Positions 13,360 through 31,433 of a stretch of DNA of 39,737 nt are shown piece after piece; position 1 is the first letter of the stretch, and every line of letters starts with the position of its first letter. The notes under the pieces were generated by a model. It saw nothing but the letters and a program-made list of their open reading frames with translations. It ran no database searches and was not told the DNA's origin. The position numbers and the translations under genes are program-made. The stretch is from Bdellovibrionia bacterium (GTDB lineage: Bacteria > Bdellovibrionota > Bdellovibrionia > Bdellovibrionales > JAGQZY01): assembly GCA_030424665.1 (NCBI GenBank), contig JAUHWN010000017.1, forward strand, positions 1-39,737. Reading direction: 5' to 3'.

Positions 13360-14466
13360 CTAGGTGGCCAACAGATCTTCGGGTACATCGCCCTCAATAA
13401 TAGATTGGGAAAGTCTTTTATGGTTAGCGTGGCCTACAAGTTTGGCCGCTTGATCAAAAGGAACGGGATCGATTTGTTGAATAAAATTTTCTTTAATTTC
13501 TGCAACAAGTTTCGCGTTTTCTTCAAGAGTTCCTTTAGAAATGGCGCCGTCACTAACAGCCTTTTCAATGGCGTCGATAGCAATCTGCGGGCTATCGAAT
13601 TCGTTACAATAGAGCAAGATGTTACACCCTGCTTGAATAGCTCGCACGGCAATTTCTCCGACTTCCCAGTGATTGCGAAGAGCCTTCATATCTAGATCAT
13701 CGGAAATAACTAAGTTTCTAAATTTAAATTCTCCTCGGATATAATCACGAATTATCGATTCAGATAGAGTAGCTGGCCATTCCGGATCTAAGTTTTTGTA
13801 GCGGATATGGGCGGTCATCACCATGGGAAGGCGCGCTCGAAATACTTTTTTGAATGGAGACATGTGGATGTTTTTAAGGGTATCAAGATCGGTGTCGTCT
13901 TCGGGCAATTCAATATGGGAATCAGGCTTGACACCACCATGACCTGGAAAGTGTTTGGCACAGGGGATGATACCCGACTTAATAAATCCTCTGACGAGTG
14001 CTGATCCTAGCTTCGCAACGATCTCTGGCTCCTTGCCAAGGGCTCGATCACCAATGATTTCATTTTCTGGATTAGTGAGAACATCAATACAAGGGGAAAA
14101 ATTGAGGTTTATTCCCATGGCCGTAAGTTCGCTTCCCATCATATTGGCAAACTTAAAGGCAACAGATGTAGAGTCGAGTGCCGACATTTTTTCAGCGGTT
14201 GGCCATTGGGTAAAAGGGGCTTTTAGGCGAGCGACGCGGCCGCCTTCCATATCAATAGCAACAAAGAAGGGTGAGTGGTCTGACTTTTGATTGCGCAGAC
14301 CCTGGAGTTCGCTGACTAGGGCGTGGATTTGTTCGGGGCTCTCTACGTTGCGCCCAAAAAGTGTTACGCCGGCAATGTCATTCTCCGTTAGGAACTTTTT
14401 TTCGTCCTCAGTTAGACTTGTTCCTTGAATTCCAATCATCATCTGTTGGCCAATTAACTTCTTCAC
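13360..14466 (-). CDS. nagZ: Beta-N-acetylhexosaminidase (glycoside hydrolase family 3)
   Basis: FVAIDMEGGRVARL, NLNFSPCIDV, IIGDRALG, CAKHFPGHGGVKPDSHIELPED, ISDDLDMKAL. Confidence 0.92.
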   Translation of the reverse strand: MKKLIGQQMMIGIQGTSLTEDEKKFLTENDIAGVTLFGRNVESPEQIHALVSELQGLRNQKSDHSPFFVAIDMEGGRVARLKAPFTQWPTAEKMSALDSTSVAFKFANMMGSELTAMGINLNFSPCIDVLTNPENEIIGDRALGKEPEIVAKLGSALVRGFIKSGIIPCAKHFPGHGGVKPDSHIELPEDDTDLDTLKNIHMSPFKKVFRARLPMVMTAHIRYKNLDPEWPATLSESIIRDYIRGEFKFRNLVISDDLDMKALRNHWEVGEIAVRAIQAGCNILLYCNEFDSPQIAIDAIEKAVSDGAISKGTLEENAKLVAEIKENFIQQIDPVPFDQAAKLVGHANHKRLSQSIIEGDVPEDLLAT

Positions 14467-15383: not shown

Positions 15384-16303
15384 GACCCACCTCGTAGTTT
15401 GGGCTGGGTCAAGACATAGAGAAAATCGGTAATAATTCCGGCGAGTACATAAGTACTAGCTACAAAAAGTACACTCCCTTGAATCACGGGGAAGTCTCTT
15501 CTCTGTAAGCTTTCAAAAATAAGAGTACCAAGACCAGGCCAATCAAAAATTGTTTCGACGATAACTGTCCCAGTGAGGAGGACACCGAGTAGAATTCCGA
15601 GAAGTGTGAGTATGGGGCTTAGTGCATTCTTTAGTACATGTTTAAATAATACTTGATTAGGAGTATTCCCTTTTGCCAGAGCGACTCGCACGTAGTCTTC
15701 TCCGAGAACTTCTTGCACGCTTGCAAGAGTCATGCGGTAAATCAGAGCAATTAATCCCGAAGACAAGGTAAGAACGGGTAGAATTAGGTTAGCTATTCCT
15801 CCTCGTTCTGAAACCGGTAGAATTTCTAATTGAACTGCAAAAATAAAAATAAGAATGGGTCCTAGCCAGAATGACGGCATCGCCAAGCCCACGAGACTTA
15901 ATGTTGATGACAATCCTCTAGTCATTTTTCTTTTTCTTGGAGCAGCCCATACGCCAAGGGGCACACCAATTAAGAATGAAAATATAAGAGCGACGGCCCC
16001 CAGTTCGAGGGTTGCTGGTAGCCGTTCAATAATTTCTTGGCTGACGGGGCGCTTTGAAAAGAGCGAGTGACCGAGATCCCCTTGCATAAGACCTAGAAAG
16101 TAATTTTTAAATTGGGTAAAGAAGGGCTGATCGAGGCCCAGGCTTTTTCGAAGAGCTTCTTTGTCAACGGCAGAGGCTTGTTCGCCGAGCATGAGATCAA
16201 TAGGGTCGCCAGGCACAAAGTGAATCAACAGAAACGTAATTAACAGCACCCCTAAAAGACTCACCAGTGATCCTATGAGTCTCTCAAGGATGGATCGACT
16301 CAA
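15380..16303 (-). CDS. ABC transporter permease, DppB/OppB family
   Basis: LITFLLIHFVPGDPIDLMLGEQAS, YRMTLASVQEVLGEDYVRVALAKGNT, VETIFDWPGLGTLIFESLQRRDFPVIQG; 4-bp overlaps with both neighbours. Confidence 0.93.
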   Translation of the reverse strand: MSRSILERLIGSLVSLLGVLLITFLLIHFVPGDPIDLMLGEQASAVDKEALRKSLGLDQPFFTQFKNYFLGLMQGDLGHSLFSKRPVSQEIIERLPATLELGAVALIFSFLIGVPLGVWAAPRKRKMTRGLSSTLSLVGLAMPSFWLGPILIFIFAVQLEILPVSERGGIANLILPVLTLSSGLIALIYRMTLASVQEVLGEDYVRVALAKGNTPNQVLFKHVLKNALSPILTLLGILLGVLLTGTVIVETIFDWPGLGTLIFESLQRRDFPVIQGSVLFVASTYVLAGIITDFLYVLTQPKLRGGS

Positions 16304-17193
16304 TTGGATTTTCCCGATTGGTTGCCATTGCCTGAATTATTCACTTTTACTTTTTGTTGATCCATCATTTGTTGTTGCTGAATCATTGTACTGGCATTGG
16401 GGTTTTTATGAAGTTCATTGATTTTTCCACTGGGCATGCCGCCAAAGAGTAACTCAATGTTTTTGGGGTTGTAGGGCTGGTTCGAAGTCGCATCGATCGG
16501 ATCGTTAACGAGTTCGAGAGTCATGCCACTTGCGGGGGCTCGAACAAATAGGGGCTCTCCCTTAATGTTCATAACGTTAACAAATTTAGAACCCTTAAAA
16601 GTGTTGAGAATGCGAAATGCCTTTTGCCCTTTGTAAGCAATTTCGCTTTCGACATAAACTTCTCCGGGGTAAACCTTTGCCTCTTCTTCGGCAATAGCCT
16701 GAAAGCGAAACTTATTACCCTTGGAAACGCCCTCTTTACTTTGTAGGAGCATGTAGGTGAGAAAGGTGGATTGGAAGGTGTGGGGTCCAATCTTTGACTG
16801 GAGCTTTTGCGGCCTATTGTTGACTGTCACGATGGCATCCATGACGCCATTAATATAAGAGGCATCGATAGATTTCGTTTGTGTGCCGCGAACGAGAGTA
16901 TAACGGTGCCTTAGGGGCTTTAGGCTTTGATCAGCTGTCGCTTGTATACTCTCTTGGATGTCACCTGCCGAGGGACTCGTTCTTAAAAAAGATGTGCTCG
17001 TGAATTGCTTTTTTTTAGCGTCGTACTCATATCTTTGAATGAAAAAGCCGATATGTTGGTTTTGTTGCATGATTCGGAAGTAGCCTTCAAAGATCACATT
17101 TGCCTGCACGTTTACTGAAAAAAATAAGACACCAATGAAGAGTGAAAGACTGTAAAAGCTCGATTTTAGTCGATATTTTGCCGCTATTTCCAT
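16300..17193 (-). CDS. Secreted protein of unknown function co-transcribed with the permeases
   Basis: Signal peptide SLSLFIGVLFFSVNVQA; 4-bp overlap with dppB-like gene. Confidence 0.6.
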   Translation of the reverse strand: MEIAAKYRLKSSFYSLSLFIGVLFFSVNVQANVIFEGYFRIMQQNQHIGFFIQRYEYDAKKKQFTSTSFLRTSPSAGDIQESIQATADQSLKPLRHRYTLVRGTQTKSIDASYINGVMDAIVTVNNRPQKLQSKIGPHTFQSTFLTYMLLQSKEGVSKGNKFRFQAIAEEEAKVYPGEVYVESEIAYKGQKAFRILNTFKGSKFVNVMNIKGEPLFVRAPASGMTLELVNDPIDATSNQPYNPKNIELLFGGMPSGKINELHKNPNASTMIQQQQMMDQQKVKVNNSGNGNQSGKSN

Positions 17194-17271: not shown

Positions 17272-19218
17272 ATGTTACGCAATGAAAAAGGACAAATGGC
17301 CATTTTTGTTGCCCTTATTTTTCAGGTGCTTTTTGTTTTCTTTGCCATGGTCGTGAATGTCGGACTTATCGTTCACGATAAAATCGCCTTACAAAATGCT
17401 GTCGATTTATCAGCCTATTACGGAGCCATGAAGCAAGGTGAAATTCTCAATAACATGGCCCATATTAATTACCAAATCAGACAGGTTAACAAATTAGCGA
17501 CGGTTCGCTATCGCGTGATCGGGGATTTTGGTTTAACAAGTCACCCGGTTCGCTCGGGCACTCCTAACTCTGATACAACAGCGTACTCCGCCATACCAGG
17601 AACAGATTCGGCCAATGTTTGTGTGACCCATGCCGATTGGCAAGAGTCCAATGCCACGGATAGAGATGCAACCCTCTGTAATGATATTAACTTTTCAGTT
17701 TCAAACCTTCCATCGGTCAATGTGATCGCCGGGTTCTTGGGTTTTGTTAATGGGATTGCGAGTTTAGTAAATTCACTCCAGGGCGCTTTCGACCGTCGCT
17801 GTGAAATGTCGGGCCCTATCAATTGGAATTTTGCCGCAAAAATAATGGCCATGTATCGAATGGACCTCAATGTCAGAAAGAAAATGTTTGAGTCCCTGGG
17901 TAGAAATTTAACGGGTAGCCCTTCAGATTTTCTCGATAAAAATGGTGATTCGGTTGCAGAGGGTGCACAAAAGACACTTTTTAAAAACATGAGTGTCCAA
18001 GACTTTTCTTTTAGAAATATAGATTTCGAATTTATGAACGGTTTAGCTCAAGGGGATTGCGGTAGTTTTGAACAGGCATTTAGCGACATTCAAATTCTTC
18101 CCATGCTCTTTTATTCTGACTTCAATGATCCTGGTGGTGGTTGTCAGCGAGTGGTTCAACCAATTTCAACTCTTCCGCTTTCGGCGGGAGCCTACCCTGG
18201 CTTGGTTCCCATGGGTCAACCTCTAGAAGTTATGGCACGAGGAGAGCCCGCCGACCCCCTCATGCGTTCAAGTCTTGGTTACGAAAAAAATCCGTGGTGC
18301 ATGGCCTATGTCGGAGTGAAAGCATCAATGACAACGAGAAAACCTTTTATGCCCTTTGGTGGTACCATTTCAATGGAGGCCAGAAGTTTCGCAAAACCTT
18401 TTGGTGGGCGAGTGGGACCATGGCACGGAAGTACCTGGTCCCGGGCGGCGGTTCGATCTTCGGGCGCGCCGACTGATGCTGTAGCACCGCCAAGAGCCAA
18501 TGCTGCAGGCGGAGGTGCTACCGGAAGAATGAACTTTGCGCGCTATCCTGGCGATGGCTTTGGCTATCGCTCAGCGGCAGCTCTAGCGGCGTGGAATCAG
18601 TTTTTCGTCAACAATATCGTTGCGAAAAATGCAGTTCGTTACGCTGATTACGATCACCTCATCACGCCAAATCAATACGAGGGTGCTGGTGACTCATTGG
18701 CTAGGGGTATCTTTAGAAATTTTGAGCTTGCGGCCATCGCTCCTGATATTTTTGATATTACTTACTATTCAATCGAACCACGCTATTATAATAATTATTT
18801 GCGAACCCAACTGGCTCGCGGAACTTATCCATCTCTTTCTCCGATACCCGATTTAGGGGCTGTTAAACCAGATTCCCCAGCAATTGCGAGAAATGTAGAA
18901 GATCAACTCAATGTCGTTCTCTCTGGAAATGCACAAGATCTCGGTCTCGCTTTTTGGAAGGTGCGAAACATCGATCATGTTTTAACAAGCTGGGCGCAAA
19001 AACGGGCCGTTGAATACTCCTTTCCCGACGAGCGCTTTGGTGCTTGTTTTGCCAAACCGAACGATGCTAGGCCCAACCCAGGAAACTGTATTGCCGGCGG
19101 CCGGAATGGCTATTCGGTGAAGCATGTTGGTAAGAAGTATTTAAACTTCAATGGACATGAGCTCGGTAACGACGGGAGTTCTGGTCCGATCCGCAATAGT
19201 CCCCCGGATGACTTTTAA
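17272..19218 (+). CDS. TadG/TadE-like membrane-anchored protein
   Basis: MLRNEKGQMAIFVALIFQVLFVFFAMVVNVGLIVHDKIALQNAVDLSAYYGA is typical of TadG-like N-termini; SD TAGGAGG at 17258-17264 supports ATG 17272 over ORF-track 17236. Confidence 0.75.
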   Translation: MLRNEKGQMAIFVALIFQVLFVFFAMVVNVGLIVHDKIALQNAVDLSAYYGAMKQGEILNNMAHINYQIRQVNKLATVRYRVIGDFGLTSHPVRSGTPNSDTTAYSAIPGTDSANVCVTHADWQESNATDRDATLCNDINFSVSNLPSVNVIAGFLGFVNGIASLVNSLQGAFDRRCEMSGPINWNFAAKIMAMYRMDLNVRKKMFESLGRNLTGSPSDFLDKNGDSVAEGAQKTLFKNMSVQDFSFRNIDFEFMNGLAQGDCGSFEQAFSDIQILPMLFYSDFNDPGGGCQRVVQPISTLPLSAGAYPGLVPMGQPLEVMARGEPADPLMRSSLGYEKNPWCMAYVGVKASMTTRKPFMPFGGTISMEARSFAKPFGGRVGPWHGSTWSRAAVRSSGAPTDAVAPPRANAAGGGATGRMNFARYPGDGFGYRSAAALAAWNQFFVNNIVAKNAVRYADYDHLITPNQYEGAGDSLARGIFRNFELAAIAPDIFDITYYSIEPRYYNNYLRTQLARGTYPSLSPIPDLGAVKPDSPAIARNVEDQLNVVLSGNAQDLGLAFWKVRNIDHVLTSWAQKRAVEYSFPDERFGACFAKPNDARPNPGNCIAGGRNGYSVKHVGKKYLNFNGHELGNDGSSGPIRNSPPDDF

Positions 19219-19519
19219 TGGTAGTTTTTAAAAGTGTATGAAAGTGAATAGACAAAATATTTGTCACTGTCTAAAGACTTACCAGGTGTCGGACCGAAAT
19301 TGCCTCAAAATGAAACACTGTTGTTTTCTGAGACCCTAGTTTCGGCAAAAATCCCAGTATTCATCTATACTAATTTAAAGGGATAAGTGCGAAAAAACTC
19401 AGTTTTTGTTGCCTCATTCCGATAAAGACTTATGTCGTGGAGGACTCTCGTAGTCCGTTCTCTGCAGGTCAAAGACCTCCTCCGCTAAAAAACTGATCTC
19501 CAAAGAAGAGGGGGAGTTC

Positions 19520-20848
19520 GTGTCGAAAAACATTCGATTACTATTCATTTTAATCAGCGGCCTTAGCCTTTCATTGATGGCTCACGCCAACCAGCCAGAT
19601 CCTAACGATATGGATGGTGATGGTTATCGAGATTCAACCTATGGTTCTGGTACCGAGGTTAACGATATTTCGAATAACCAGTATTACAATAATACGAATG
19701 CGAACTCTAACCGACATGACTCTCGAACCATGAATGAGCGTTTAACCGACGCACGAAATGGTCTTGATTCGGCCCAAGGAAATCTTGGTGCTAGTCAACG
19801 AGCTCTATCAGAAGCCATTCGAGCGGCCGAGCAAGCCAATCGCTACCGTGATGACTACAACCCTTACTCGGATCCAGCTGTGCAAGCAGCACAAAGGCAA
19901 GTTCAAGCCAATGAACAAGCCGTCATGCAGGCTGAACAGCATTTACGAAGTGAACAGAGAGTCGCCGGAGCCACTAACAACGCTACAGATGATATGCGTG
20001 ACGATGTGGCCAACGACTTAAATGATGCTGCAAATACCTATGAACTCGGCGGACCCGATTCGGTGAACCGAGGTGCTAAAGGAGCTCAAGCCCAACAAAT
20101 GATCGGTGCGGCCATGAGTGCTGCTGCTGCCGCCGCCTTCTTTTCGAAGTGCGGTTGTCCTGGTTGTCAAATTAACTGTGTACTCGGCGGTCTTTCTGCT
20201 GCCCAAGCTGCCATGATGATGATGGGGGCTGCGCAAACGGGTTCAGGTACAATTAATCCAACCAATGTTGGCTATGGAAGTAGTGGAACAAGTTATGACC
20301 CATCAATATATAGTGGTTCTAACAATCCCAACGCTAGCGGTGTTAGCACAATGGGAGGGCTCAATTCCAACGATCCGGCAGCCATACAGGCCCGAGGGGT
20401 CCTCAATAAACTCAAAGAAATGGGCTATGAATTTAATTCTGATGGAACAGTGACTCTGCCTGACGGAACTAAAGTTTCTTCAAGTGCCTTCAACTCAGCT
20501 AAAGGAATGAAGGACGCTGGATTCTCTGATGCAGAAATCGCCAATGCATTGGCGGCGATGGATCAGGTAAAAGCACAAAACGCTAAGGCCAATGTTGTGG
20601 CTGTTGGTGTTGAAGGCGGCGGCGGTGGCCGTTCTGCCGGAGCTGTGAATGCTTATGGATCTGCGAGCCGTTACGGGAAAAATAAATATGGACGCAAGGG
20701 TAAAGATGCCAAGCGTGGAATTGCCAGCGTTGCTGGAATGAAAAAGAAATTCGGAAGTGACATGATTGGTGTTGCTAGTGACGACATCTTTAAAATGATC
20801 CGTCGTCGATATGATAAGAAACGTAAATCGAAAGCCTTTTTGGAATAA
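19520..20848 (+). CDS. Secreted protein P1: coiled-coil, Ala/Met-rich helices around CxCxxCxxxC, Gly-rich basic C-terminus
   Basis: GTG start with GAGGGGGAG SD; signal peptide LLFILISGLSLSLMAHA; C-terminus DDIFKMIRRRYDKKRK. Confidence 0.8.
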   Translation: MSKNIRLLFILISGLSLSLMAHANQPDPNDMDGDGYRDSTYGSGTEVNDISNNQYYNNTNANSNRHDSRTMNERLTDARNGLDSAQGNLGASQRALSEAIRAAEQANRYRDDYNPYSDPAVQAAQRQVQANEQAVMQAEQHLRSEQRVAGATNNATDDMRDDVANDLNDAANTYELGGPDSVNRGAKGAQAQQMIGAAMSAAAAAAFFSKCGCPGCQINCVLGGLSAAQAAMMMMGAAQTGSGTINPTNVGYGSSGTSYDPSIYSGSNNPNASGVSTMGGLNSNDPAAIQARGVLNKLKEMGYEFNSDGTVTLPDGTKVSSSAFNSAKGMKDAGFSDAEIANALAAMDQVKAQNAKANVVAVGVEGGGGGRSAGAVNAYGSASRYGKNKYGRKGKDAKRGIASVAGMKKKFGSDMIGVASDDIFKMIRRRYDKKRKSKAFLE

Positions 20849-20865
20849 AGGGAGCGAGAAGCATT

Positions 20866-22131
20866 ATGAAAAAGAGTTTATCTATTATTTTTTGTATGAG
20901 TTTACTAGCGGCTGCCCCCAATGTTTTGGCTCAGGCAACTAGAACCCAGCCAGGTCAATCCGAAGGTGGATGTCAGCAAATCGCAAATGACACTCACAAT
21001 TACGTCAACGAGATCCGTCAGCCAGGCGGAGCCCTTGAGCAGGCACAAATTATTTCTGCAGAGGGTGCTGATCAGTCAGAGCTGTCACGCGAAGGTGCGC
21101 AAACAGGCTTCGATAGCATGGTTGATACGAATGCTCGACTTCTTATGTTGAGAGAGCGTTTAAGTGGTCTAACAGGATCTTGTGAAGAAACCTGTTCGCA
21201 ACTCGAAAGAGATCTTGCTCAACAGAAAAGCTATCATGAGCAAATGGCTTCGTCGACAATGATGCCAGCCTCAGCCCAGCACCAGCAGATGGCTCAGGAC
21301 TTCGAAAGCAGAAGGTCGCGTGCTGAACAGGATTTGAATTCCTGTCGAACAGCTGAAAATGAAGAAGGTGGCCAGATGGATGGTCAGCTCGGCAACCTAG
21401 CTCAATTACTTCCAGCCCTCATGGCAATGATGCAAGGAATGGGTGGAGCCGACGACCCTGAAGCGGTTGAGTCGGCCGACAATAGCTGTATTGGTATGGC
21501 AAAACAAAAAATTGAAGCTGCACAAAATGGTGAAGATCCGGCCTATATCGATGCCATCGAAAAAACCTATAACAATCTATGTAACGATAGTGGTGTTGCC
21601 ATTGCTGACCTTGGTTCGGTCGGTGGAGCGACTCCTAACGGAAGTGTCACTGCCAGCCGTACAGGTAACTTGCCCGATAGCCGTGCTATCGATCAAAGTT
21701 TTGCCGGCGGTCTTGAAAAAGACGGTCAGAGCTCTAAAGTCGAAAGCTTTGGTGGATCTGGCGGTGGATTCAACGGTGGATCTGGTGGTGGCGGTCGAGC
21801 AGCGAGCCTCAATGGTCGTCGTCGCGGTGATCCTAATAAATTAAATACCGACATTATGAAGGGAACTTCAGGTGGTGGAATTGGTGGTGGTCGTCGCGGT
21901 GGCGGTGGTGCCTATGCCGCTGGTGGACCTCGTAGTGGTCGATATGGCCGCACACCAAACGCCGACGCTAGTAAAGCCAATTTAAAGCAGTTTTTACCAG
22001 GTGGAAAAAAGTATCGTGGTCCCGCATCGGCTGCCGCTAAAAAAGGCGAAGTCAGTGGTGCTCTTGGGCCATCGAATTTTGAAAAAATAACTCGACGATA
22101 CCAAAAGGTACAGAAGTCGTTACTTCCCTAG
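20866..22131 (+). CDS. Secreted Gly-rich protein P2 with shared C-terminal module
   Basis: Signal peptide SIIFCMSLLAAAPNVLAQ; KVESFGGSGGG...LNTDIMKGTSGGGIGGGRRGGGG...LKQFLPGGKKY...GPSNFEKITRRYQK. Confidence 0.85.
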   Translation: MKKSLSIIFCMSLLAAAPNVLAQATRTQPGQSEGGCQQIANDTHNYVNEIRQPGGALEQAQIISAEGADQSELSREGAQTGFDSMVDTNARLLMLRERLSGLTGSCEETCSQLERDLAQQKSYHEQMASSTMMPASAQHQQMAQDFESRRSRAEQDLNSCRTAENEEGGQMDGQLGNLAQLLPALMAMMQGMGGADDPEAVESADNSCIGMAKQKIEAAQNGEDPAYIDAIEKTYNNLCNDSGVAIADLGSVGGATPNGSVTASRTGNLPDSRAIDQSFAGGLEKDGQSSKVESFGGSGGGFNGGSGGGGRAASLNGRRRGDPNKLNTDIMKGTSGGGIGGGRRGGGGAYAAGGPRSGRYGRTPNADASKANLKQFLPGGKKYRGPASAAAKKGEVSGALGPSNFEKITRRYQKVQKSLLP

Positions 22132-22151
22132 GGAAGGTAATAAATAAATCC

Positions 22152-22190
22152 GTGAGTTTTTCAAGAGTAGGGAGGCTTTGAGAAACTCAC
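22152..22190 (+). other. Intercistronic RNA stem-loop between P2 and P3 genes
   Basis: GTGAGTTTTTCAA / TTGAGAAACTCAC: 13 bp stem with one G-U wobble, 13-nt loop containing AGGGAGG; no following U-tract. Confidence 0.7.
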
Positions 22191-22203
22191 AAGCGAGGGT
22201 TTA

Positions 22204-24426
22204 ATGAAAGTATATGTAGTGATTATTTTAACTTTAGCGAGCTTCGGCTTGGCTAAAGCCTCAGAAGTCTTTCTAGCTCCGGTGGATCTAGATGGGGGAC
22301 TATCTGCGTGGGTTCAAGATATTGAACTCCTTCGAATCGAACATCAAAGTAACTACGTAGAAGTCGACCCTGACAGTCTTTTTGTTCAAGCACTATTAAA
22401 GTTTGAAGAAAGTTATCCAACGAAAAATTACGTGGTTTTAAAGCCGTCGATACAGAAGCGCCCAAATCGTGGCTTAGCTTCAGTTGGTTGTGACCCTACA
22501 GACTTCTTTTGTGAAGATCCCAGCGGAACTTCTGTTTACGAAGACGTGGCAGCGGAACCAGTAGATGCAGAAGAAATTGTGGATTTTCCGCAAGAGAATA
22601 ATGATCTGGTCAGATATAATGAATGTGTGGCAGAGGGAATGAGTCGTGAGGATTGTGCTCAGTCTTTGCTTCCACCAATACCTGAGGAGCGTCCATCGCA
22701 AGCAATGGATGCTTATAATGAGTGTGTTGCCTCCAGAGATCCTTTGGACTGTAATCATCTTCATCCCGATTGGCAGGGTCCAGCGGCTCCGATAGCAGAA
22801 GACCGGCCCCAAGGATGGCATTATCCAGATCCAGTGAACCCAGATATTGAAGTAACAAACTGGGACACCTGTATGCAGGCCTATGAAAATTCAAGTCTTT
22901 GCGGTTACTGGGGTTTTGATCCAAACAATCCAGATGCTGAGTATGATCCCACACAAGTCGGGCGCGTAGATCCTAGTGCCGTTCCTGAAGGGGTTATTGA
23001 CCCGAGTGCAGAAATTACCCCTGGAAGAGTCAACCCCAACGCTGAGGTCCCTCCCGGTGAAGAGGCACCGAGGGTTGCTGGTCCGAGGAAACCCAGTGAA
23101 GAAGTCTTCAATAGATGTGAGCGCAGTTACTCAAGGGCGGCTCCCATTTGTGGATCGGATATGAATGATCCCGACCGCAATGCTGTACAAAACTTTTTAA
23201 GGACTCAAGCCGGTCCAACAATGATGACGGTCGCAAATTTACTCTCCCAGTTTTCTGCCATGAATTCTGCGAGTTCAGCACAAGACACCCAGGGGATGCT
23301 CAATGCCTGTAAAAGAGCGCAAAGAGTAGCTACTGGAATGACGGCACTCAACGGAGCTTGGGCTGGTGGTTGTGCTCTTATGCGAAGACAGTGTGAAGAC
23401 TCTTGTGTTGAGTACATCGATGCGGCCACAATCTATCGTCGTTCGGGCGATGTTTCTCCTGAAGATTTTGACGAAGTGACAGAAAAATTTCAAAGAGCGC
23501 GTCGCCTAGCTTATCAATGTCGAACCAATGGTCCAATGACCCAATCGACACGAGCGGGAATCATGGGTGGTGCTCAGTCGGCCGTTTTAATGTCACAATC
23601 GAGACTCTGTGTAGAGCAACTCGAGGCTTTGGGGCCATGTTCCGGACCGGATGCCCATACAAAGCCAGAGTGTAGTGATTACTGTGGTCGCCCCGAAAAC
23701 GCTGGGAGTCCTGCTTGTGCAACCATTGCAGGAATTGATTGTACGGATCCCTCTCAAGCTCGATCCAATCCAGCCTGTATTTGTCAGCAAAACCCCAACG
23801 ATCCAGCTTGTACTGGTGGCCTTAATCCGATGCCCACTGGAAACAACACAAATAATGGCGGGCGCACGGGCTACGGAACTCCTTCGGGTACTGGTGGAAG
23901 CACGAGCTTTGCCAGTTCTACAACAGGTTATGGCCCTGCTTCAGGCCCTGCTTCAGGCCCTGGTGGCCCCGGAGCGCGCAATCGAAATGGTGGTAATCAA
24001 AATGCCAAAGTCGAGAGCTTTAACGGTTCAGGCGGTAGTGGTCCAGCTGGTGGCGGTGGCGGCGGAGCCACAGGTTTTGGTGGTGGATCGAACCCTGGAG
24101 CTACTGGTATAGCTCTTAAAACTGATATTATGGGCGGTACAACTGGTGGAGGACTTGGTCGTCGTCGCGGTGGCAATGGTCGCCTAGGGCGTGTGGTTCG
24201 TGGTCGTCGAGCCGGTACTAATAACCAAAACCAACAAAACCAAGGTGTGGATCTCGCCTCCTTTTTACCAGGTGGCGCTGGCTATGCCCAGTACCAGAAA
24301 CAAAGAGGTCTTGCTGGAAATATGACGATCAAAGCGAGAGATGGAATAACTGGACCTTATGGGCCGAGCTTATTTGATAAGGTGTCGCGACGCTATCGAA
24401 TTAAAGAAAGAACGCTCACTCCATAA
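22204..24426 (+). CDS. Secreted Cys/Gly-rich protein P3 with shared C-terminal module
   Basis: Signal peptide VVIILTLASFGLAKAS; repeated Cys-pair units; KVESFNGSGGS...LKTDIMGGTTGGGLGRRRGG...LASFLPGGAGY...GPSLFDKVSRRYRIK. Confidence 0.85.
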   Translation: MKVYVVIILTLASFGLAKASEVFLAPVDLDGGLSAWVQDIELLRIEHQSNYVEVDPDSLFVQALLKFEESYPTKNYVVLKPSIQKRPNRGLASVGCDPTDFFCEDPSGTSVYEDVAAEPVDAEEIVDFPQENNDLVRYNECVAEGMSREDCAQSLLPPIPEERPSQAMDAYNECVASRDPLDCNHLHPDWQGPAAPIAEDRPQGWHYPDPVNPDIEVTNWDTCMQAYENSSLCGYWGFDPNNPDAEYDPTQVGRVDPSAVPEGVIDPSAEITPGRVNPNAEVPPGEEAPRVAGPRKPSEEVFNRCERSYSRAAPICGSDMNDPDRNAVQNFLRTQAGPTMMTVANLLSQFSAMNSASSAQDTQGMLNACKRAQRVATGMTALNGAWAGGCALMRRQCEDSCVEYIDAATIYRRSGDVSPEDFDEVTEKFQRARRLAYQCRTNGPMTQSTRAGIMGGAQSAVLMSQSRLCVEQLEALGPCSGPDAHTKPECSDYCGRPENAGSPACATIAGIDCTDPSQARSNPACICQQNPNDPACTGGLNPMPTGNNTNNGGRTGYGTPSGTGGSTSFASSTTGYGPASGPASGPGGPGARNRNGGNQNAKVESFNGSGGSGPAGGGGGGATGFGGGSNPGATGIALKTDIMGGTTGGGLGRRRGGNGRLGRVVRGRRAGTNNQNQQNQGVDLASFLPGGAGYAQYQKQRGLAGNMTIKARDGITGPYGPSLFDKVSRRYRIKERTLTP
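23932..23962 (+). repeat. 12-bp tandem repeat GGCCCTGCTTCA x 2.6, in frame (GPAS)
   Basis: Direct reading: ggccctgcttca ggccctgcttca ggccctg. Confidence 0.9.
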
Positions 24427-24458
24427 AAAGTAAATTAAAATTTACGGATCAACGACTT

Positions 24459-24491
24459 GCCTGAGCTCAAACGCTCAGGCATTGTTTTTTT
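24459..24491 (+). terminator. Rho-independent terminator (or attenuator/operator) abutting the anmK start codon
   Basis: GCCTGAGC-TCAAAC-GCTCAGGC then ATTGTTTTTTT; ATG of anmK is the next base. Confidence 0.8.
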
Positions 24492-25619
24492 ATGACTAAG
24501 AAAAATTTAAACATCGTTGGAATTATGAGCGGAACGAGTATGGATGGAGTTGACTACGTCCTTTGTCGTTTCAAAAATGTTGGATCGTCGCCAAAGATTG
24601 AATTCCTAGATTTAAAGTCGGTGCAATTTTCAACTAAGCTTCTTGATAAACTTCATTTGGCAGCACAAAACAAGCTCAGTCTCTGGGAGAGTTCTGAACT
24701 CCATTTTGAATTGGGAGAGTTTTATTCTAAAAAATTGAAGGCCATCGCCAAGTCAAAGGCTTGGAAGATCGATTTAATCGGGCTCCACGGGCAAACGGTT
24801 TACCATAGGGGGAGGCATTCAAGCTTGCAATTGGGAGATGCAAATTTTCTAAGCCAAGACTTCAATTGCCCGGTGGTTTCTAACTTTCGAGCGGCTGATG
24901 TCGCTCTGGGCGGCCATGGTGCGCCCTTAGCGCCTTTCTTTCACAAAACCTTGCTATTACCCCTCTTGAAGTCAAAGGCCCTGGCATTTCACAACCTCGG
25001 GGGAATTTCTAATCTTACCTATCTTAAAAAGACGGGATCAGGCCGTCTTCAATTTCATTCATTCGACACGGGACCGGCTAACATTCTCATGAATCTCGAA
25101 TACATGCGTAATTTTCCGGACTCTCGAGGTTATGACCGAAATGGTTTGATGGCATCCAAGGGCACAGTTTCGACTACAATTTTAACTAAAATGTTGAGGC
25201 ATCCTTTTTTGCGTAAGAAGTTTCCGAAGAGTTGTGGTCGCGAAGAGTTTGGTGAAGAGTTTTTAAAAATCTACCGCAATTCCTTGAATCGTCTGAGTGT
25301 TGAAGACCGCTTAGCGACACTTTGTGAGTTTTCGGCCCTTACAATTGCCGAGGCCTATTCGAAGCTTTTAAAAGACCTTCCCGAAACGATCTACTTTTCT
25401 GGAGGTGGTGTTTACAATAGAAGTCTGATGTCTCGCATACAATACTACTTACCCGATGTCGAAGTTAAAACTTCTCTAGATTTAGGCTGGCCTGCCAACG
25501 CTATTGAAGGCGGTGCTTTTGCTCTTTTAGCCGGCTATCGCTATTTCGAAATGCCTTTAGAGTTAAAGCCTATTACTGGGGCAAGAAAAAATAGTTTATT
25601 GGGTCAAGTGACGATTTAA
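24492..25619 (+). CDS. anmK: Anhydro-N-acetylmuramic acid kinase
   Basis: IVGIMSGTSMDGVDYVLC, GLHGQTVYHRG, QLGDANFLSQDFNCPVVSNFRAADVALGGHGAPLAPFFHK, FHNLGGISNLTYL, FDTGPANILMN. Confidence 0.95.
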   Translation: MTKKNLNIVGIMSGTSMDGVDYVLCRFKNVGSSPKIEFLDLKSVQFSTKLLDKLHLAAQNKLSLWESSELHFELGEFYSKKLKAIAKSKAWKIDLIGLHGQTVYHRGRHSSLQLGDANFLSQDFNCPVVSNFRAADVALGGHGAPLAPFFHKTLLLPLLKSKALAFHNLGGISNLTYLKKTGSGRLQFHSFDTGPANILMNLEYMRNFPDSRGYDRNGLMASKGTVSTTILTKMLRHPFLRKKFPKSCGREEFGEEFLKIYRNSLNRLSVEDRLATLCEFSALTIAEAYSKLLKDLPETIYFSGGGVYNRSLMSRIQYYLPDVEVKTSLDLGWPANAIEGGAFALLAGYRYFEMPLELKPITGARKNSLLGQVTI

Positions 25620-26677: not shown

Positions 26678-27457
26678 TCATGTTGAGATAGATTTCTTAA
26701 GTTCAACGTAATACGAATGATCGTTATCAGCCAAAGCTTGTAGTTTCAACTCCGCTTCCTTCAAACCTTCGGGGTTTCCAACTTCAAACCATAATCCTTC
26801 GGCGCGAAGAACATTTACTGAGAAGCCTTTTTCGATGGCCTTGTCTAATACTCCGTAGAGAATATTGGACTCTCCGTCGGCGGGGATATGATCAATGATT
26901 TCTTTTGATAAGGCCATGTATCCTGTAAAGTGAAGGCCGCTTAGATGTTTTTCGGGTGTGTTTTTGCCAAAACCTTTAACCTCGTCATTGCCATTAACCC
27001 AGACACCACCAAATTGAGTTCCGACACCGGGGTGCTCAATACACAAGATCGTGGCAAGAGAGTCGCTGCTCTTTCGATATTCCGAGAGCTGTTTCAAAAT
27101 GCCATCGGACTTTGGAAGAAAAATTTCATCACCATTGCAGTACAAAATATCATCGCAGTTATCTAAGAAACCCCAGGCATGCCTCAACCCTCCAGCTCCA
27201 CCAAGTATGGCATCCCTTTCGAGACTAAAAGAAAACTCTTCACCATCTAGTCTGAGAGGCTCTAGGGCTTCGCGCATTTTTTCTGGAAGATAGTGGAGAT
27301 TAAAAATAAAATTTTTAACACCGCTTTTTCTTAGTAAATGAATGCTGTGATAAACCAAGGGGACCTGATTAACTCTTATTGCAGGCTTGGGCGTCGAAAG
27401 GGTGAGTGGTTTTAACCGTGTTCCCTTTCCGGCAGTGAGTATAAATGATTTTGTCAT
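26678..27457 (-). CDS. murU: MurNAc-1-phosphate uridylyltransferase-like nucleotidyltransferase
   Basis: FILTAGKGTRLKPLTLSTPKPAIRV, YCNGDEIF, WFEVGNPEGLKEAE; 4-bp overlap with amgK-like kinase. Confidence 0.82.
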   Translation of the reverse strand: MTKSFILTAGKGTRLKPLTLSTPKPAIRVNQVPLVYHSIHLLRKSGVKNFIFNLHYLPEKMREALEPLRLDGEEFSFSLERDAILGGAGGLRHAWGFLDNCDDILYCNGDEIFLPKSDGILKQLSEYRKSSDSLATILCIEHPGVGTQFGGVWVNGNDEVKGFGKNTPEKHLSGLHFTGYMALSKEIIDHIPADGESNILYGVLDKAIEKGFSVNVLRAEGLWFEVGNPEGLKEAELKLQALADNDHSYYVELKKSIST

Positions 27458-28518
27458 GCTTCGAATCTTTTATCGTAGAGACCGTGATTTTCTAAAATGT
27501 CATTAAAGTCTTTGTATTCACTAAAGTGCTCTAAGGACGCTCTGACGTGTTTAAGAGTTCTTCGAAGGTATTTTAAATAGCGACTATCATTTCGATTGAC
27601 CTTAAAGCTTGCAAAGCTGCCGCAGGCCTTGAAACATCTTTGAATCGATTGAAGTTGATAAACGTTTAAAAACTCATCTTTAGAATTTGGTACATAGGAA
27701 TGTTCTTTAGCAGATTCCAGGTAGTAATCGATACAGTAATCGTGGACATGAGAATTCAGTTTTACATAAGAATCTTTAAATAGGCTGACTAAGTCATACT
27801 GAATGGGGCCCATGCGAGCATCTTGAAAATCAATGACCCGCATTTTACCAAACTTAATCATGACATTTCGAGAGTGATAATCGCGGTGACAAACATACTG
27901 TTCTTGGTTTGAGAGCTTTTCACAGATATCAGAAAAAATGGAAGCTAAAGATTTTTTCTCCGATTCACTGAATTGAATTTTACAAAGATTTTCTAAGAGA
28001 TGCTCCCGTCCGTAGTTCATTTCCCAAAGGAGCTTTTCTTTATCAAAAACTGTGGTGAAGGCAGTAGATTCTTGATCGAGCTTTTTTGTAGCGAAGTGAA
28101 TCTTTATGAGTTCATCAATAGCAAGTTGATAAAAAGGAATAACTAATTCTTGGTTCTGATTCTCCCAAAATTTTCTCTCTAGAGTGAGGTCGCCCAGGTC
28201 TTCAAGTAACATAAGGCCTAGCTTTGGAGATTTTTTAATGACTTCTGGAACTTGAACACCAGCTCTTGAAAATAAACTGTGAACACTTAAAAAGGGAAAC
28301 TGTGGAGAATCTTCAAACGGCTCCCAAGCCATAATGACATAGGATTTTTCCTCCTGTACGAGCCGATAATACCTTCGGGTTGAGGCATCACCTGCCAACG
28401 GGAAGATTTCGTATTTTCCAGATTCAAAAGTGGGACTCAAGAAATCAGAAATATTTTTTTCGTCCTTAGACTCTCTAAATACCTTCATAGGCAAACTTTC
28501 TACAGCATTTAAACTCAT
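27454..28518 (-). CDS. amgK: N-acetylmuramate/N-acetylglucosamine anomeric kinase-like (APH family)
   Basis: PLAGDASTRRYYRL, MLLEDLGDLTLE, VCHRDYHSRNVM, VIDFQDARMGPIQYDLVSLFKDS. Confidence 0.85.
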   Translation of the reverse strand: MSLNAVESLPMKVFRESKDEKNISDFLSPTFESGKYEIFPLAGDASTRRYYRLVQEEKSYVIMAWEPFEDSPQFPFLSVHSLFSRAGVQVPEVIKKSPKLGLMLLEDLGDLTLERKFWENQNQELVIPFYQLAIDELIKIHFATKKLDQESTAFTTVFDKEKLLWEMNYGREHLLENLCKIQFSESEKKSLASIFSDICEKLSNQEQYVCHRDYHSRNVMIKFGKMRVIDFQDARMGPIQYDLVSLFKDSYVKLNSHVHDYCIDYYLESAKEHSYVPNSKDEFLNVYQLQSIQRCFKACGSFASFKVNRNDSRYLKYLRRTLKHVRASLEHFSEYKDFNDILENHGLYDKRFEA

Positions 28519-28621: not shown

Positions 28622-29539
28622 TTAGACAAGAGCGAGGTGGTTGTGAATGGGCAAATCTTCGATTTCATCGGACCCAAAGCTCGCTTTTGCTAGGATCTTA
28701 AGTGACAATTTTTGTAAAATTCTCTTTTGTTCTTTTAAGTCATACATTGAATCATCTAGTTCTCTATCTTTGTACGAAATGTAGTTTCGTTTACTGAGGT
28801 GATTGAGAATATCTGAACAATCTGAGTTTTCTGGTACTTCAAAGATAAACAGTGGAAGCTCTTGGCTGGGAATCCAATCAATTATTTTGTGAATTCGTGC
28901 TTGCTCCTCAAAGCTCAATTCATGAAAGTCAGAGACATAGACAACGGCAGAGCCCATGCTTTTTATTTCATCAGCATTTTGAACGTCGAAAAAACTAGAG
29001 TCCACTCGCATGAAAGCCCACCGTCGACTCATTTTATGAATCTCATGGGCGATCTTTAGATTTTTTAGGCTTTCATTTTCGGTGAGTAAAATGTGTTTGA
29101 GTACTTTTCGTGGCTGCGATGCCTTGGGGATCGTACCAATTGACTCAAAGAGCTCCTGAAACTGACAGAAACTCGAGATATTTATGATTTCGGAATTTTT
29201 AATTTCTGGGTCTTTCGAATAATCCCATCTCTCAAGGTCTTGAATCAATGACTCTAGGCTGGTCGCTAAAAACAGAGCCATCTGTTCTTGTATCGAATCG
29301 CTGGGGTTACTTAGACCAAGAATCTCGACAACGCAAATGGGTTGATACATTCCACTAATGAAATAAACCCATTGATGGGTCTCATCATTATATATAAGAC
29401 TAGTTTGCGATTTCTGGAGTTGCTGAGACGATAGCTCCCATGAACTACAATAGCTCATAGGATGAACTAAGATTTCTAGTTCGAACCGGTTTAAGAATAC
29501 TTCGTTTACACGTTCAACGACTTTTTCAATCATCTCCAT
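28622..29539 (-). CDS. Degenerate sigma-54 enhancer-binding-protein-like protein (pseudo-AAA+)
   Basis: ILLTENESLKNLKIAHEIHKMSRRWAFMRVDSS aligns by eye with the Walker A region of AAA+ activators; VVYVSDFHELSFEEQARIHKIID with the Walker B region. Confidence 0.5.
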   Translation of the reverse strand: MEMIEKVVERVNEVFLNRFELEILVHPMSYCSSWELSSQQLQKSQTSLIYNDETHQWVYFISGMYQPICVVEILGLSNPSDSIQEQMALFLATSLESLIQDLERWDYSKDPEIKNSEIINISSFCQFQELFESIGTIPKASQPRKVLKHILLTENESLKNLKIAHEIHKMSRRWAFMRVDSSFFDVQNADEIKSMGSAVVYVSDFHELSFEEQARIHKIIDWIPSQELPLFIFEVPENSDCSDILNHLSKRNYISYKDRELDDSMYDLKEQKRILQKLSLKILAKASFGSDEIEDLPIHNHLALV

Positions 29540-29796
29540 GAGCCCCTATAAGGCAAAGCCTGTGCCTGGTGAATATAGTACTCTTGCTCCTGTCTGATGG
29601 CTGGTCACCCTTTTAGAGGGGTGTTACTCTGGTAGCGCTCATTAATCTAAGTGCATGTAATTACTGATGAAAATTTATTAGAACGAGGGTGTAGTGATTT
29701 TGAACAGTTTGGGGGCGAGACTCCGAATTCAGGCACCCTTGAGGAAACTACTCTTTTCACCGCTTGTTTCGACGTAGATCTTTTAGACATCCCCAA

Positions 29797-29828
29797 ATAA
29801 AAAGTCCCCTTACAAGAGTAAAGGGACC
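29797..29828 (-). terminator. Intrinsic terminator of the sigma-54 regulator gene
   Basis: Minus strand GTCCCTTTAC-TCTT-GTAAGGGGAC followed by TTTTTATTT. Confidence 0.75.
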
Positions 29829-29858
29829 AATAAATTTCTTTTTTTAATCGAGTCAGAG

Positions 29859-31433
29859 CTATGATTTAGCGATTCGACGCTTATCTAGTCCGTACTTTTC
29901 GACTTTCATGATCAATCCAGCGCGAGAGATACCGAGTTCTTTAGCAAGTTTCGACTTGTTCCAGCCCGTTCTTCTCAAACCTTCTTTAATCATCTGGCGC
30001 TCAAGTTCTTCGAGGGCATCTTTAAGCTTACCGTGAACTCGGGCACCCTGAACTTTCCCTTTTTCAGAGCTTTCGATGATTTTCGGAGACAGCATATCAG
30101 CTGTTAACTTCGTTTCATCACTTGAAAGGACGACCATTCTCTCCATCTCGTTTTGGAGCTCACGGACGTTACCTGGCCAAGAGTAATCATAAAGCTTTTC
30201 AAGAGCTCTCTTGGTAAGAACCTTCTTCTTAACTCCTGTTCTTTCGGCAGCAAGTTGCAAGAAGAACTCAGAAAGAAGAGGAATATCTTCTTTTCTCTCT
30301 CTTAATGGCGGTACACGAATATTGATAACGTTGAGGCGATAGTATAAATCCTCACGGAATGTCCCTTGCTCAACCATATCTTTTAGCGGCTTGTTTGTTG
30401 CCGCAATCACGCGGACATCAACCCGGCGAGTATCAACGGCACCAACTGGCGTGTAAGTTCCTTCTTGAAGAACGCGGAGAAGCTTTACCTGCATCTGTGG
30501 AGAAGTATCACCAATCTCATCCAAGAAGAAAGTTCCCTTATCAGCAATTTCAAAGAGACCCTTCTTATCTTTATGGGCACCAGTAAATGAACCTTTAACG
30601 TGACCAAAAAGTTCTGATTCGAGTAGGTTATCGTTAAACGCCGAACAGTTCTGTAGAACAAAAGGCTTATCTTTTCGACTCGAATTGTAGTGAATTGCCT
30701 TAGCAATCAATTCCTTACCAGTACCGTTTTCCCCTTGGACAAGAACAGTACTGTCTGCGCTCTTGATTTTATCGAGTAGAGCATAAAGTGATTGCATGGG
30801 CTTAGATTTACCAATCATATTGTCGTATTTATAGCGACTTCCCAATTCTTTATTGAGTTCGCGGATGCGATCTTCTCGTTGTGTGATTTCAAGGTGAAGA
30901 GTCACGATCTCTTTAGCAACGAGGTCGACGAGATCATAGAAGTGCTCACGATCTTGGTCGTCCATAAATTTGATTTTAGATAGTGCCTGATCAATAAGAT
31001 CCGCACTGGCACCAAATGCTGCTAGACGCTCACGAACTTCAGACAGTCTGTGGGCTTCGCTTGGATCTTTAATAAAACCCATTGCCACAACAGTTCCCAT
31101 GAAATCGTTATCTATTAAAATAGGAAAGATAGCGATATCAAAACCAGCCATATCCCATTTTCTAATGGAGTATCGATTTTCTGAAAGTCTTAAATCGTCG
31201 ATAGCTTTGGCAACGGTTTGTGCCAAGTTATCCTTTGCCGAATCCTTAGTTAAATAGGTTTCAACTGACGGGTTAATTAACTTTGCTTTTTGATTGTCGA
31301 ACCCTCTGATGTGTCCACGCTCATCTGTAAAAACAGTATCGATATTCCACCAGGAGTTTAGAATTTGTTTAAGCTTTCGAATCACATGTATGTGTTCAAA
31401 TTCATCCCAATTAATCACGAACTTCCTCCCCAA
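29859..31433 (-). CDS. Sigma-54-dependent transcriptional activator (sensory domain + AAA+ + Fis HTH)
   Basis: GENGTGKELIAKAIH, ELFGHVKGSFTGAHKDKKGLFE, GTFFLDEIGD, FREDLYYRLNVI, WPGNVRELQN, C-terminal NKSKLAKELGISRAGLIMKVEKYGL. Confidence 0.93.
   Translation of the reverse strand: MGRKFVINWDEFEHIHVIRKLKQILNSWWNIDTVFTDERGHIRGFDNQKAKLINPSVETYLTKDSAKDNLAQTVAKAIDDLRLSENRYSIRKWDMAGFDIAIFPILIDNDFMGTVVAMGFIKDPSEAHRLSEVRERLAAFGASADLIDQALSKIKFMDDQDREHFYDLVDLVAKEIVTLHLEITQREDRIRELNKELGSRYKYDNMIGKSKPMQSLYALLDKIKSADSTVLVQGENGTGKELIAKAIHYNSSRKDKPFVLQNCSAFNDNLLESELFGHVKGSFTGAHKDKKGLFEIADKGTFFLDEIGDTSPQMQVKLLRVLQEGTYTPVGAVDTRRVDVRVIAATNKPLKDMVEQGTFREDLYYRLNVINIRVPPLRERKEDIPLLSEFFLQLAAERTGVKKKVLTKRALEKLYDYSWPGNVRELQNEMERMVVLSSDETKLTADMLSPKIIESSEKGKVQGARVHGKLKDALEELERQMIKEGLRRTGWNKSKLAKELGISRAGLIMKVEKYGLDKRRIAKS

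Follow-up and report, generated by a model that had tools for sequence, protein, structure and literature searches.

A conserved TadG-encoding locus of Bdellovibrionia with Sec-exported, tail-sharing proteins as a candidate prey-attachment module

Here we analyse a 39,737-nt stretch of a Bdellovibrionia genome (the window, at its full length) and, within it, a locus at positions 17272-24426, where a gene for a TadG-like protein (P0001) is followed by the genes for three proteins with Sec signal peptides, P1, P2 and P3. The locus is an undescribed syntenic gene set, and P1-P3 share a C-terminal element. We put at about even the chances that it constitutes an attack-phase prey-attachment module of Bdellovibrionia, in which TadG would act with a Tad/Kil pilus and with exported partners docked through their tails. 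The attachment role is fairly well supported, by way of the locus tags that we infer for the counterparts in Bdellovibrio bacteriovorus HD100. We directly establish the gene set and its conservation, the shared tail, the enrichment of a promoter motif and the mapping onto HD100 by position and codon. By homology and analogy, TadG may form the tip of a Tad pilus; the tails would dock on a partner that we can only propose, TadG would act with the Tad/Kil machine, and the window organism presumably uses the locus as HD100 does. The features of the locus are as follows (G031 in our genome set is taken to be HD100).

17272-19218, + strand: TadG-like P0001, 648 amino acids (aa), PF13400 'Tad'; HD100 counterpart G031:C1:131949-134168, putatively Bd0148
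19399-19425, + strand: FliA (sigma-28)-like promoter site, TCAGTTTT-N11-TCCGATAA, 5' of P1
19520-20848, + strand: P1, A family, 442 aa; HD100 counterpart putatively Bd0150
20741-20845, + strand: C-terminal tail of P1 (..MIGVASDDIFKMIRRRY..), from the tail profile and the A/B profile alignment
20866-22131, + strand: P2, B family, 421 aa; HD100 B-family counterpart putatively Bd0149
22024-22128, + strand: C-terminal tail of P2 (..GALGPSNFEKITRRY..), from the tail profile and the A/B profile alignment
22204-24426, + strand: P3, B family, 740 aa; signal peptide, Cys-rich body, Gly-rich linker, tail
24319-24423, + strand: C-terminal tail of P3 (..GPYGPSLFDKVSRRY..), from the tail profile
24458-24490, + strand: intrinsic terminator 3' of P3, 9 pairs (6 G-C) and a T-run

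An earlier note on this DNA, made from the letters alone, had described four consecutive + strand genes with 17 bp between P1 and P2 and a strong terminator beyond P3; all four open reading frames (ORFs), that spacing and the 9-pair hairpin with its T-run stand. The other gaps measure 301 bp (tadG-P1) and 72 bp (P2-P3), and since the 301-bp gap contains a FliA-like site of its own, a single four-gene transcript is not supported. The gene set is conserved beyond chance, being 93-99% conserved in a sister genome and also present across the order. The gene-neighbourhood comparison that the earlier note had proposed, and by whose failure it would have abandoned its case, revealed conserved synteny. 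Our counts cover the named relative loci plus the window. Of the 48 loci with enough sequence, 29 have tail genes at most 5.5 kb downstream of tadG, on the same strand in every case.

The common C-terminal element, which the earlier note had placed in P1-P3, is real and can be delimited more precisely, to a tail of ~35 residues near the extreme C-terminus (consensus roughly [IV][TG]G..[GA].[SD][NS][IF][FW].[KM][IV]..RY). When the last ~60 residues of the two families were compared with hhalign, the A and B tails aligned over 34 columns with a probability of 70% and an E-value of 4.1e-5. Searched against this genome, a joint A+B tail profile retrieves exactly P1, P2 and P3, with the best further match at an E-value of 1.0; in HD100 it retrieves five proteins. 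This profile was built from C-termini, and the position of the tail in other proteins provides an independent check: the match ends at most 28 residues from the C-terminus in 75/75 tail-bearing ORFs around tadG. The A-family (P1) tail is found in 125 of 144 genomes of the class, mostly once per genome, and in the P1 model it is predicted, with modest confidence, to fold into two short strands and a helix.

The bodies that carry this common element are Sec-exported and otherwise different, all three signal peptides having been borne out. P1 comprises a signal peptide, a coiled coil, an Ala/Met-rich helical hairpin, a small domain, a Gly-rich linker and the tail; P2, a signal peptide, a coiled coil with Cys, a Gly-rich part and the tail; and P3, a signal peptide, a Cys-rich body bearing 24 Cys and the CIC motif of the B family, a Gly-rich linker and the tail. 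The description of all three as Gly/Cys-rich needs correcting for P1, which has fewer Cys (4) and a lower Gly content than P2 and P3. The A-family hairpin contains two near-invariant Cys, with a conserved Cys in its turn, and the structure model of P1 predicts a coiled coil, a hairpin bearing the conserved Cys, a small domain, a Gly linker of low confidence and the tail. A Foldseek search of this model against the PDB yielded nothing significant. In profile searches, none of P1-P3 matched a Pfam or NCBIfam family above cut-off. Since conservation is low outside the tail, P2 as a lone query found relatives in as few as 17 of 99 genomes, and profiles were needed. Likeness of P1 to colicins or MakA was rejected as that of generic coiled coils, and matches to TIGR04320, Csp1-like, WGxxGxxG, DUF7626 and New_glue were discarded as below cut-off or low-complexity.

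A GGAGG precedes the start codon of the TadG-like gene, ATG 17272. The TadG-like N-terminus noted earlier is substantiated by a PF13400 'Tad' match above the curated cut-off (residues 19-65 of the longer ORF, E-value 4.7e-8, 33.7 bits vs 22.3), and a genome search (39.6 bits) identified P0001 as the sole PF13400 match in this 4.4 Mb genome. TadG-like proteins occur in 98 of 99 relatives of the order at ~40% identity, with conserved motifs extending far beyond the Tad domain (EKNPW, FGGRIGPW, APDLFD.TYYSI, GGRTGYSVK), and a profile search found them in 328/369 genomes of the phylum, the matches being weaker outside the class. Nine genomes of the class are without TadG, six of them also without the A family; most of these are incomplete assemblies, so that the absences are weak evidence. 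As the earlier note had stated, genes for TadA/B/C, Flp and secretin are absent among the window ORFs examined, and there is no pilus or secretion ATPase on the contig of the window. P0001 is accordingly filed as TadG-like, with no canonical tad locus.

P0001 has the N-terminal Tad domain (PF13400) of the TadG encoded in the widespread Tad locus, but differs from it in a distinct conserved C-terminal part of ~550 residues and is encoded outside a tad operon. The AlphaFold2 model (mean predicted local distance difference test score 85.9, predicted template modelling score 0.89) suggests an N-terminal helix of 80 residues (5-84), a second long helix (157-214) and then a beta-strand region forming a scaffold; Foldseek against the PDB gave no significant fold match. 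Among the closest described systems is the KilLMN tip complex of the Kil (Tad-type) pilus of Myxococcus xanthus, whose authors predict a tip complex for Bdellovibrio (PMC12075869). KilN, as described there, is a large minor pilin of the TadG/KilN type whose additional domain combines two long helices with a beta scaffold and has no relative in the PDB; the secondary structure predicted for TadG agrees with this verbal description (PMC12075869). Tip genes may also sit apart from the pilus operon in the Kil system, which shares the predation context. Unlike there, tadG here lacks an adjoining TadE/TadF-like (KilL/KilM) gene and is accompanied by Sec-exported tail proteins instead.

The tail itself resembles the PEP-CTERM and type IX secretion system C-terminal domain (CTD) sorting tags, short C-terminal elements on otherwise different Sec-exported proteins, and by this analogy may be a recognised sorting or docking tag. 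Unlike those tags, it is without a membrane helix, an Ig-like fold or a known dedicated enzyme, and is found on few carriers per genome.

Evidence for expression in the attack phase comes from promoter motifs and from HD100. The site in the window (19399-19425) is individually a weaker match, 2 of 100 shuffles scoring equally high. A related motif, AAG-N13-18-CCGAWA, occurs downstream of tadG on the coding strand in 15/37 loci, compared with 0.38 expected and 1 on the opposite strand. In HD100, where tadG, B and A occupy 131949-136742, a FliA-like AAG-N14-CCGAAA lies directly upstream of the B gene, putatively bd0149. The published promoter Pbd0149 contains a FliA motif and is robustly active in the attack phase (PMC12622784), in independent agreement with the site that we find, which supports the identification of B as Bd0149.

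That identification was reached through a published mutation. In two biofilm-forming host-independent strains that also bear bd0108 frameshifts, bd0149 carries c.767G>T, G256V (PMC11323537); published bd0108 inversion coordinates fit the G031 genome. Read from its first ATG, the HD100 B gene has a codon that fits the mutation, GGT. TadG, which we had tried first as Bd0149, was ruled out, failing at every start tried, and nagZ, the gene divergent from tadG and the A gene fail at their first starts. B is taken as Bd0149 because of this codon test, and A as Bd0150 because it occupies the whole interval before the NamZ gene. The latter, directly after A, fits Bd0152, termed a 'muramidase' (PMC11656739). 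The counterparts would thus be TadG = Bd0148, B = Bd0149 and A = Bd0150. A transposon mutant, Bd0150::tn, is reported to be defective in attachment to prey, killing and rounding (PMC6561027); literature searches for further locus tags yielded nothing more.

A connection with predation, raised by the earlier note, is therefore indicated through these putative counterparts, attachment-negative Bd0150 and the attack-phase FliA promoter Pbd0149; its suggested link to the 'hit locus' is circumstantial, the HD100 locus lying ~30 kb from the hit/Tad operon. Prey attachment by Bdellovibrio is poorly understood to date, and in many of the attachment mutants the gene affected is merely named 'hypothetical'. 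Given our mapping, Bd0150 and its neighbour Bd0149 are now tied to a conserved locus that holds the genome's sole TadG.

We propose that the TadG-like protein, whose gene is separate from the Tad operon, would serve as a large minor pilin (tip) or membrane anchor of a Tad/Kil-type pilus. P1 (A) and P2/P3 (B) would be exported via Sec under their own FliA-type promoter and become Gly-rich partners with stabilising disulphides, located either in the periplasm or extracellularly, where the helix-containing shared tail may dock them on a common receptor, either TadG or another envelope component. More tentatively, it is possible, if less likely than not, that an undescribed C-terminal tail system extends throughout the Bdellovibrionota, comprising a few Sec-exported Cys/Gly-rich adhesins or effectors per genome that are made in the attack phase and loaded through the docking tail on a TadG-tipped pilus for prey binding. 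With a short tail that marks partner proteins across the phylum, there are now specific genes and a putative docking motif to test.

Several points weigh against the attachment module as we propose it. Classical type IVb prepilins (G/XXXXE) have a Glu at +5 that TadG lacks; across 52 sequences, Gly7 is invariant and so is Phe12 at +5. Tad ATPases are present in 99/99 relatives of the order, and their co-occurrence with TadG cannot prove a link and is uninformative, because both are near universal there. In 19 of the 48 loci with enough sequence, the 5.5 kb around tadG hold no tail gene, and tail proteins of another class lie in stretches without tadG. A single four-protein assembly, docking or sorting by the tail and a physical link to the Tad machinery are hypotheses. 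The HD100 locus tags were assigned from position and codon and not from annotation, and the NamZ gene likewise passes the G256 codon test, NamZ being better suited to Bd0152 than to Bd0149 because bd0152 was called a muramidase. The Bd0150 phenotype, finally, comes from a transposon insertion, and the mutant is not among the complemented ones named in the accessible text of that report (PMC6561027).

The tail proteins of the other class, with no adjacent tadG, also speak for a different explanation, in which P1-P3 are secreted, Cys-crosslinked, Gly-rich adhesins held by their tails in an adhesive surface layer, TadG being a mere neighbour and the Tad pilus uninvolved. Tandem arrays of tail genes beside flagellar genes in Bdellovibrio, the FliA-type promoter motif that the A/B genes have to themselves and the attachment defect of putative Bd0150 (PMC6561027) are also in its favour. 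However, TadG is also present in nearly all class genomes bearing the A tail, and the genes share a strand in all 29 loci where they stay together; we regard such a layer as rather unlikely, with a real share of the probability. The signal peptides, Cys pairs and coiled coils, and the conserved A-family hairpin with its Cys in the turn, would also suit proteins that never leave the periplasm and serve Tad/Flp pili as assembly factors or chaperones. Yet we know of no Gly-rich partner of a Tad system, and the number of carriers varies among genomes, unlike that of a fixed assembly factor; we consider this reading improbable. The same holds, with little to separate them in our judgement, for a function shared with the surrounding recycling enzymes, either in the turnover of peptidoglycan or in remodelling of the prey wall: the flanking nagZ-, anmK-, murU- and amgK-like genes, with murU/amgK no more than 9 kb from tadG in 31/44 loci, and the NamZ muramidase gene after the A gene in HD100 point that way, but family searches of the four proteins and the A family found no catalytic or peptidoglycan-binding domain, and a terminator separates P3 from anmK.

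The nagZ-, anmK-, murU- and amgK-like genes form, as judged by their families, a peptidoglycan-recycling island around the locus that is conserved across the order; the MurU and AmgK roles are ones that we assume from family knowledge. The neighbouring genes in the window are:

13360-14466: NagZ-type GH3 gene
16300-17193, - strand: divergent conserved secreted protein, 297 aa, neighbour of tadG, no Pfam match
24492-25619: AnmK gene
26678-27457: MurU-like nucleotidyltransferase gene
27454-28518: AmgK-like kinase gene

In 52 of 61 loci, the divergent gene and tadG are no more than 1.5 kb apart. The locus is split in one relative (G002), whose A and B genes stay with anmK-murU-amgK and whose tadG is on another contig. 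A sigma-54 activator gene and a smaller gene adjoining amgK (window 28622-31433) are also conserved neighbours.

Tad ATPases come in two forms in most genomes, one short (~373 aa) and one long (~750 aa), and the long one of HD100 is within the hit/Tad operon; examples in HD100 are at G031:C1:99867-100916 and 743496-744587. The tail carriers of the other class, in family f12 (L236, L237, L240, L271 and L274), are large, Sec-exported proteins with hydrophobic N-termini; they end in a tail like SIFE[IM]IS.RY and are often two adjacent, with no tadG in the stretches examined. Bdellovibrio genomes contain additional B-type tail genes away from the tadG locus, 2-4 of them in a tandem array (L035, L036, L039, L041 and G031:C1:489.6-492.6 kb); in those whose flanks were covered, the array adjoins flgF/flgG/flgA and a gene for an aspartokinase.

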